A DNA stretch of 64,000 bases, taken from Flavobacteriales bacterium. GTDB taxonomy: Bacteria > Bacteroidota > Bacteroidia > Flavobacteriales > Flavobacteriaceae. Position numbers and translations under genes: made by a program. The notes below the pieces were generated by a model that saw nothing but the letters and a program-made list of their open reading frames with translations, ran no database searches and was not told the origin of the DNA. The DNA is taken from positions 1-64,000 of the forward strand of contig JABMNH010000016.1 in NCBI GenBank assembly GCA_013205245.1. The letters run 5' to 3'. Below are positions 1,094 through 58,050 of this stretch, in pieces (within the stretch, counting starts at the first letter, position 1; every line of letters begins with the position of its first letter).

Positions 1094-1165
1094 TACCCTC
1101 GCTAGGAATCGAACCTAGATCTAAAGTTTAGGAAACTTTTGTTCTATCCGTTGAACTACGAGGGC
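1094..1165 (-). tRNA. tRNA-Arg(CCT)
   Basis: Reverse complement GCCCTCGTAGTTCAACGGATAGAACAAAAGTTTCCTAAACTTTAGATCTAGGTTCGATTCCTAGCGAGGGTA folds as cloverleaf; anticodon CCT; GGTTCGATTCC T arm. Confidence 0.95.
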
Positions 1166-50032: not shown

Positions 50033-50145
50033 AACAAAGTGAAATTAAATAATTTTTTAAAAACTAAAAAAAAGTTTAGGTCAACAAAAAAAACCATGTA
50101 CATTTGTACCGTTATTTAAACATAACACAAGTTCATTAAATTAAT

Positions 50146-50242
50146 ACTTATCAAGAAAGGTGGAGGGATTGGCCCTGTGAAACCTTAGCAACCCTTAAAT
50201 TTTTTAAGAAGGTGCTAATTCCTGCTAAACAGCAAGATAAGT
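50146..50242 (+). ncRNA. SAM-I (S-box) riboswitch aptamer
   Basis: P1 acttatc/gataagt; AAGAAAGGTGGAGGGATTGGCCCTGTGAAACCTTAGCAACC...AGGTGCTAATTCCTGC matches the S-box core; followed by sulfur-metabolism genes. Confidence 0.93.
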
Positions 50243-50272
50243 CAGAAGATATATTTAAAAAACCTCTTTTGA

Positions 50273-56658: not shown

Positions 56659-56751
56659 GTCTTTGCGAGCGTAGCGTGGCAATCTCTTTCAAAACAGTAA
56701 ATAATTTCATGAGATAACCACGTCATCCCGATAGCTATCGGTACTCCTCGT
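56659..56751. repeat. Palindromic intergenic repeat, interrupted at its right end by IS110
   Basis: gtctttgcgag...gtggcaatctc paired with gagataaccac...atcccgatagctatcggtactcctcgt. Confidence 0.7.
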
Positions 56752-56789
56752 ATTCTATGATTAAAACAAATAAAAAATGTTAAATTTAA

Positions 56790-57785
56790 TTAAGCTGCAT
56801 ATTTCATAATATCCACGTATGGTGTCTGACGATTTACAACAGCAAAGATTCTAGATAATAATTTATTCCTAAGAATGTTTATAGTATTCATTTTGTTTTT
56901 ACCTTCAGATACTCTTTTATAATAATAGGTTCTCATTTCTGGGTTGTAATTAATAGATGCTTTAGCACATAGATCTAATAAACTTTTTATTTTTTTATTA
57001 GCTAGATGACTTACTTTTGTTTTACCTCTTATACTTGTTCCTGACGTATTAGGGAAGGGAGCTACGCTACAATAAGAAGCAAACTGTCGCCAACTTTTAA
57101 ATTTAGTAAAGGCTTCGCTGTAGGCAATTATAAATAAAGCCGTTTGTCTGCCAACGCATTTGACACTTGTTATCAGTCTGAAAATATCTTTTAAAGTATT
57201 CTCATTATTGATAATAGTATCTAAACCCTTGTCAACTATATCAATTTGCTTTGTTAAATATTTAATCATTTTTTCTTGCGTTGGTAATAAAATTTCATTG
57301 TCTTTCTTAAGCAACACACGAGAAAATTCTTTTAGAGAAGATTTGTACCCAGCTCTTTGTTTAACTAGTCTATCTCTTAAAGAAAGAAGCCTTTTTAAGT
57401 TAATTATTTCCTCACAAGGCATTTCATATGGTTTAATCTCATCTCTTAATCGGTAACCATAAAGAGCTATTTTTGTAGCGTCTACCTTATCATCTTTACC
57501 TCTTGCAATCCCTAATGATCGTTTAATTTCAAGTCCAGAGACTAAAGCAAAAGGAAGGTTTTGTTCAGTTAAAAACACAGATAATAGATAAGAATAAATA
57601 CCTGTGTGCTCAAAGATAAATAGTGTTTCTTCTTTTGAAAATGGATTATTACAATTAACCCATTTAATTAGTTTTTTAAATCCCTTGTTTGTGTTTTCAA
57701 AGACACTAAACATTTGATTGCTGTGAATCCGAACATCAAATTTTAATTTACTGATGTCAATGCCAATAGTTTGTTTAATTCTCAT
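56790..57785 (-). CDS. IS110 family transposase
   Basis: IGIDISKLKFDV, FEHTGIYSYLL, ARGKDDKVDATKIA; C-terminal transposase_20 (SVKCVGRQTALFIIAYSEAFTKFKSWRQFASYCSVAPFPNTSGTSI). Confidence 0.95.
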   Translation of the reverse strand: MRIKQTIGIDISKLKFDVRIHSNQMFSVFENTNKGFKKLIKWVNCNNPFSKEETLFIFEHTGIYSYLLSVFLTEQNLPFALVSGLEIKRSLGIARGKDDKVDATKIALYGYRLRDEIKPYEMPCEEIINLKRLLSLRDRLVKQRAGYKSSLKEFSRVLLKKDNEILLPTQEKMIKYLTKQIDIVDKGLDTIINNENTLKDIFRLITSVKCVGRQTALFIIAYSEAFTKFKSWRQFASYCSVAPFPNTSGTSIRGKTKVSHLANKKIKSLLDLCAKASINYNPEMRTYYYKRVSEGKNKMNTINILRNKLLSRIFAVVNRQTPYVDIMKYAA

Positions 57786-57804
57786 AACTTTGTATTTAAG
57801 TTTA

Positions 57805-57967
57805 TTAAAATGGTTACTTTGACTAAAACCTTTATGAGGTATTCCGAGGGATATCGGAGCTGAAATTCTATTTGGTCCTTTGTAACCGGGTTATAAAAGA
57901 ATGGGGACTAATACGAGCGATACTTCTAAAAAAACTACGTTAAGACCTAGTTCACCCCATTCTTTTT
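57805..57967 (-). ncRNA. Candidate IS110 bridge RNA (bRNA/seekRNA)
   Basis: Noncoding end upstream of transposase; 12-bp stem aaaagaatgggg/ccccattctttt (57895-57906 / 57955-57966) with 48-nt loop, and second stem-loop closed by ggttac/gtaacc (57812-57817 / 57882-57887); loops contain matches to target and donor. Confidence 0.65.
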
Positions 57968-57975
57968 TCTTTTAA

Positions 57976-57983
57976 CAAATTTA
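57976..57983 (-). promoter_or_regulatory. Candidate Bacteroidota -7 element for bridge RNA
   Basis: Minus-strand TAAATTTG fits TAnnTTTG, about 10 nt before the 57966 stem. Confidence 0.4.
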
Positions 57984-58050
57984 AATGTTTTTTATAGTTT
58001 GCTAATCTAAAGGTTAAGACGCATTTTTTTTGATTTCCCAAAAAAAACTC

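Follow-up and report, generated by a model that had tools for sequence, protein, structure and literature searches.

The element and the repeat that it interrupts

The window analysed here, a stretch of 64,000 nucleotides from a Flavobacteriaceae bacterium, contains a complete IS110 element on the minus strand (56752-58012, 1261 bp excluding the core copies, core AC), in which a single recombinase gene is preceded by a long noncoding end and followed by a short one. Elsewhere in the window, a tRNA gene is found at 1094-1165 (minus strand) and a SAM riboswitch at 50145-50243 (plus strand, 92 bits). The parts of the element and of its target are listed below, with the basis for each placement in brackets.

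56752-58012, minus strand: whole element (intact repeat copies elsewhere in the genome, and ends conserved among relatives)
57786-58012, minus strand: left end, 227 nt, noncoding, upstream of the gene
56790-57785, minus strand: IS110 recombinase, 331 aa (Pfam and NCBIfam matches, alignment to IS621 and ISCro4)
56752-56789, minus strand: right end, 38 nt, noncoding, downstream of the gene
58013-58014, minus strand: core dinucleotide AC at the left junction (sequence; intact target copies)
56750-56751, minus strand: core dinucleotide AC at the right junction (sequence; same as at the left junction and in the intact target copies)
56659-56749, no strand assigned: right part of the split target repeat, whose other end lies at 58015-58022 (repeat copies in the genome)

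When joined, the flanks of the element read gcGTCTTAACGAGGAGTACC..., a sequence from a palindromic repeat, about 100 bp long, that is dispersed in the genome. The rebuilt site, GTCTTAACGAGGAG, is found uninterrupted in two other contigs of the same genome (C63 and C3), and related copies are present on further contigs. Because these uninterrupted copies exist, the ends at 56752 and 58012 and their common core AC can be set without any argument from the guides, and the boundaries proposed in the initial annotation are thereby fixed. A query built from the target side gave seven matches in the genome, one of them the copy split by the element, and the terminal motif of the repeat, GTCWTNNCGAG, occurs 37 times compared with 7 for the reversed control. 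The ends of the element are conserved among relatives (CATAG[AG]ATAC and CTTTAG), and the insertion is at a specific site at which donor and target have just the core in common, as is characteristic of the IS110 group. The split repeat itself (56659-56751 and 58013-58022) is MITE- or REP-like, with ends of the form GTC[AT]TNNCGAG. There is a single copy of the element in its own genome, and it is absent from the only other genome of the genus, where the upstream gene order differs, so that no clean empty allele can be taken from it.

The recombinase comprises a DEDD (RuvC-like) domain and a Tnp domain with the catalytic serine. It matches the Pfam families DEDD_Tnp_IS110 (2.7e-20) and Transposase_20 (9.7e-17), as well as the NCBIfam model NF033542 for IS110 family RNA-guided transposases (4.2e-43, over the cut-off). 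In an alignment with IS621 (8wt6) and ISCro4 (9t56), residues D10, E59, D99, D102 and S248 correspond to D11, E60, D102, D105 and S241 of IS621 (numbering according to PMC11208158). Some of the related recombinases appear to be broken: the one at 1501-2489 of locus L055 has a split reading frame, and those of L021, L129 and L130 also seem interrupted; the three G033 copies each contain a single in-frame TAA.

A predicted two-loop RNA in the upstream noncoding end

A bridge-RNA-like element of 163 nt lies on the minus strand upstream of the recombinase gene. It was located with a covariance model built from 31 relatives of the recombinase, which were taken from the same family and from species genomes, with the window excluded. 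The model matches the window with 115.3 bits (E 1.6e-18) over all 145 of its positions, the next best place reaching only E 0.13, and the noncoding end folds 3.4 standard deviations below its dinucleotide shuffles. Its features are the following, all on the minus strand.

57976-57983: TAAATTTG, which matches the Bacteroidota promoter element TAnnTTTG exactly and lies 10 nt ahead of the RNA match
57803-57965: bridge-RNA match, consisting of target-binding loop, linker and donor-binding loop (covariance model)
57895-57966: target-binding loop (loop 1) with a 12-bp closing stem (stem covariation)
57938-57946: left target guide (LTG), GUCUUAAC plus G, with the core AC at bases 7-8 (8/9 match to the left flank and core)
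57913-57917: right target guide (RTG) CUCGU, pairing with target ACGAG (sequence; relatives)
57910-57912: target-loop handshake guide AUU, pairing with donor AAT adjoining the core (contiguous with the RTG; covariation)
57812-57887: donor-binding loop (loop 2), closed by GGUUAC/GUAACC with inner GAC/GUC (stem covariation)
57865-57871: left donor guide (LDG) AUAGAAU, equal to the right end (covariation)
57843-57858: additional hairpin at the donor-loop apex, longer than in relatives (an insertion with respect to the model)
57828-57834: right donor guide (RDG) UAAAGGU, pairing with the core AC and the adjoining CTTTA (sequence; hardly varies in the clade)

The closing stem of loop 1 (57895-57906/57955-57966) is paired at 12 of 12 positions, and among the relatives seven of the ten modelled pairs show changes on both sides. 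For loop 2, the 6-bp arms (57882-57887/57812-57817) are fully paired in 31 of the 32 sequences, in many compensatory forms, and the inner pair is GAC/GUC in 17 sequences and AAC/GUU in 15. These arms were counted separately from an RNAalifold run on a MAFFT alignment, which recovered just the loop-1 stem because the loop-2 arms were misaligned. The donor loop is expanded by 14-16 nt at its apex, between LDG and RDG, a region of variable length among relatives. The hairpin found there (TCCGATATCCCTCGGA, minus sense) is absent from the relatives; the possibility that it is a copy of a dispersed repeat was rejected, since it occurs once in the genome. A further block of the noncoding end varies within the clade: between the element tip and the RNA, a purine-rich stretch, AAAGAGGGGGTCTGGGGGAGAC, is conserved in many relatives (L015, L016, L020, L022, L025, L049, L051 and others), others have a T-rich block instead, and the window element has no such purine-rich block.

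The promoter-like motif had been noted in the initial annotation as lying just before the proposed RNA start, and it holds as an exact match. Within 60 nt upstream of the RNA, an exact TAnnTTTG is present in 10 of 32 elements, compared with 1.6 expected and a maximum of 8 in 1000 shuffles. This enrichment across the clade suggests that the motif is probably a phylum-specific promoter element.

None of the 4227 Rfam models covers the bridge RNA at its gathering score, the search returning just a sub-threshold chance match (E 0.44). Bridge RNAs have been predicted in 85.7% of catalogued IS110 members (Durrant et al. 2024, PMC11208160), so the existence of one here is expected. Membership of the IS1111 group was rejected, as the RNA lies upstream of the gene and the downstream end measures 38 nt.

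Guides, targets and donor ends among relatives

The initial annotation had read four guide segments directly from the minus-sense RNA, and all of its coordinates, including those of the stems and the core, hold on the raw sequence. The guide order LTG-RTG-LDG-RDG, the strand sense, the two-loop form and the element type agree with the scheme described for IS621 (PMC11208160, PMC11208158). The initial annotation took the joint pattern, not the individual matches, as the evidence; when the noncoding end was shuffled 20,000 times with dinucleotides preserved, all four segments together occurred in no shuffle, and the single-segment rates were 0.005, 0.093, 0.030 and 0.105 (product about 1.5e-6, or about 6e-8 with the order required). 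The strong evidence for these guides comes from the comparison across relatives.

Loop 1 contains GUCUUAACG and CUCGU. The identity of nine nucleotides claimed for the first of these is correct for eight, which cover the left target and the core; the ninth base (G) lies one past the core. The complementarity of CUCGU to the target ACGAG is confirmed for the core and the 3 bp beyond it, after which there is a mismatch. Compared with most relatives, the window LTG is shifted by one base in the 5' direction, away from the inner stem. Alignment of 28 relatives with their own flanks shows that guides and targets covary: the LTG agrees with its left flank at 206 of 252 positions, whereas shuffling of the flanks among elements gives 102 +/- 8 and the observed value was attained in 0 of 20,000 shuffles; for the RTG the count is 128 of 140 (49 +/- 7 shuffled). 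As the flanks lie outside the element, this test is less affected by the relatedness of the elements than the donor and handshake tests presented below. The relatives insert into many unrelated sequences, each of which fits its own RNA loop. Copies with an identical loop 1 and unrelated flanks had been put forward as evidence that would speak against the guides; what was found is the one copy in the element's own genome and, in three multi-copy genomes (G399 with four same-loop copies, G101 and G033 with two each), similar targets, with right flanks that are the same or nearly so and left flanks differing at 1-4 of 9 positions.

On the donor side, both loop-2 segments of the initial reading were verified, AUAGAAU being identical to the right end and UAAAGGU complementary to the left end plus core. 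The window LDG matches the donor up to the core and not into it. Among relatives, the LDG tracks the right end (e.g. GGAT/GGAT and TTAGATT/TTAGATT), with 187 matches compared with 170.5 +/- 2.3 in shuffles that ignore the relatedness of the elements (0 of 50,000 reach the observed value). An addition to the initial reading is the handshake guide AUU, whose position covaries with the donor end (76 matches compared with 68.3 +/- 1.8, reached by 13 of 50,000 shuffles, relatedness again ignored). Since AUU follows the RTG and pairs with the donor end, CUCGU-AUU pairs unbroken with the recombinant right junction, AATACGAG, in the manner of the handshake guides of IS621. For the donor-loop handshake base, 12 of 25 matches were counted compared with 8.4 in shuffles, which does not amount to significant covariation.

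The clade also yielded three relatives with two tandem target-binding loops, at the loci L143 (1-10001), L144 (1-11001) and L145 (1-12001) (also L026-L028). They belong to three genera, and their recombinases are 48-50% identical to that of the window. Their additional target-binding loop precedes the usual one by about 100 nt. Counted from the usual loop, the right end follows after 1.6 to 3.6 kb, with an intact target copy located about 200 nt inside it. Between the recombinase and the right end, L143 and L144 enclose mercury-transport cargo, with genes for a MerT-type transporter and an ArsR-type regulator; L143 additionally encloses a cation efflux protein, and its right side carries genes for SSB, RadC and a DUF5712 protein (the Pfam search covered L143 only; judged by eye, its proteins and those of L144 are nearly identical). 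The sites considered for the two loops are ACTATGGG and TCTATGGG. In L144 the right guides of the two loops fit two variants of the site, 6/6 and 5/6, one located at the right end and the other intact inside the element; the right-guide fit is weaker in L143 (4/6 and 5/6), and in L145 both sites are identical. This fit of guides to sites is suggestive only, and the idea that a single bridge transcript could be directed to two sites and contribute to the uptake of cargo is best regarded as speculative, with the odds against it.

Proposed mode of action, alternative readings and relation to known systems

Taken together, the element is very probably a complete IS110-group insertion sequence that works like IS621, by way of a bridge RNA. 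The upstream noncoding end would be transcribed into this RNA, loop 1 of which would pair with both target strands, the LTG with the bottom strand of GTCTTA plus core AC and the RTG with the top strand ACGAG. Loop 2 would pair with the donor formed on joining of the right and left ends, the LDG with the bottom strand of ATAGAAT and the RDG with the top strand AC-CTTTA. The recombinase would bind the RNA in a ribonucleoprotein and cut next to the core, strand exchange would be helped by the AUU handshake guide, and the circle would be inserted with only the core duplicated. In this case the target is the end of a dispersed palindromic repeat.

Several observations do not fit perfectly with a functional element of this kind: it is present as a single genome copy, the LTG is offset by one base, the RTG is short, the donor loop is expanded by 14-16 nt and its handshake base lacks significant covariation. 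The first four of these would also be accounted for if the element had once worked by way of a bridge RNA and had since lost its activity, with a guide out of register and a donor loop damaged by the inserted hairpin. Such a reading is compatible with the preferred one regarding the identity of the RNA and differs from it regarding present activity. We consider it possible but rather unlikely, given that the open reading frame keeps all five catalytic residues and that all four guides still match. Furthermore, of the three distinct forms among the four copies in the multi-copy genome G399, two likewise score best at a comparable offset of one base, and the expansion sits at the LDG-RDG apex, where relatives vary in length.

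The other two alternatives concern the role of the RNA itself. Structured leaders occur ahead of transposase genes, and the structure lies directly upstream of the recombinase start, as would be expected of a merely cis-acting leader or attenuator whose guide matches are coincidental. At the level of the clade this is refuted by the covariation of the loop-1 guides with DNA outside the element (28 relatives, 0 of 20,000 shuffles), and for the window element it can be regarded as extremely improbable. Scarcely more probable is that a protein-DNA or hairpin signal serves to recognise the repeat, an idea put forward for IS elements entering REP sequences before bridge RNAs were known, with the RNA employed otherwise; the target is indeed a palindromic repeat end, but the relatives enter many unrelated sequences, each in accordance with its own loop.

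Compared with IS621 (Durrant et al. 2024, PMC11208160; Hiraizumi et al. 2024, PMC11208158), the bridge-RNA element described here has the same DEDD recombinase with catalytic serine, the same long upstream and short downstream noncoding ends, a target loop followed by a donor loop, the same guide order and strand sense, a dinucleotide core, a handshake position after the RTG and a palindromic repeat as target. It differs in its distant recombinase (phmmer E 1.9e-14) and in its core, which is AC here and N-C at the left junctions of the clade (GC 13, TC 7, AC 4, CC 1), while that of IS621 is CT. In addition, the RDG is a contiguous 7 nt instead of split, no 5' stem-loop is seen ahead of the target loop, the donor loop carries an extra hairpin, and the TAnnTTTG motif lies inside the left end, whereas the promoter of IS621 is built at the end junction. 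These differences are variations on the known scheme. As in ISEc21 and the IS1111-type seekRNA elements (Siddiquee et al. 2024, PMC11187229), an RNA encoded in the noncoding region has matches to both strands of the target and relatives are naturally re-targeted; the order of the matches, bottom strand before top strand, is that of ISEc21, which is of the IS110 type, while in IS1111 members the RNA is downstream and the guide order reversed. The best match of the recombinase among solved structures is ISCro4 (PDB 9t56, E 4.2e-15), the comparison covering the recombinase.

The mechanism was described in 2024, and the element is a solid further example of it, not a new mechanism. Its value is that of a clean native example accompanied by clade data: one raw element was enough for the bridge-RNA guides to be read, and comparison then validated them. 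To the known systems it adds a clade of Bacteroidota whose core is not CT and which has a probable phylum-specific promoter element; in this clade, at a distance from IS621, the target-loop handshake guide covaries with the donor end. The naturally re-targeted relatives, together with their targets, are useful for studying and choosing programmable recombinases.
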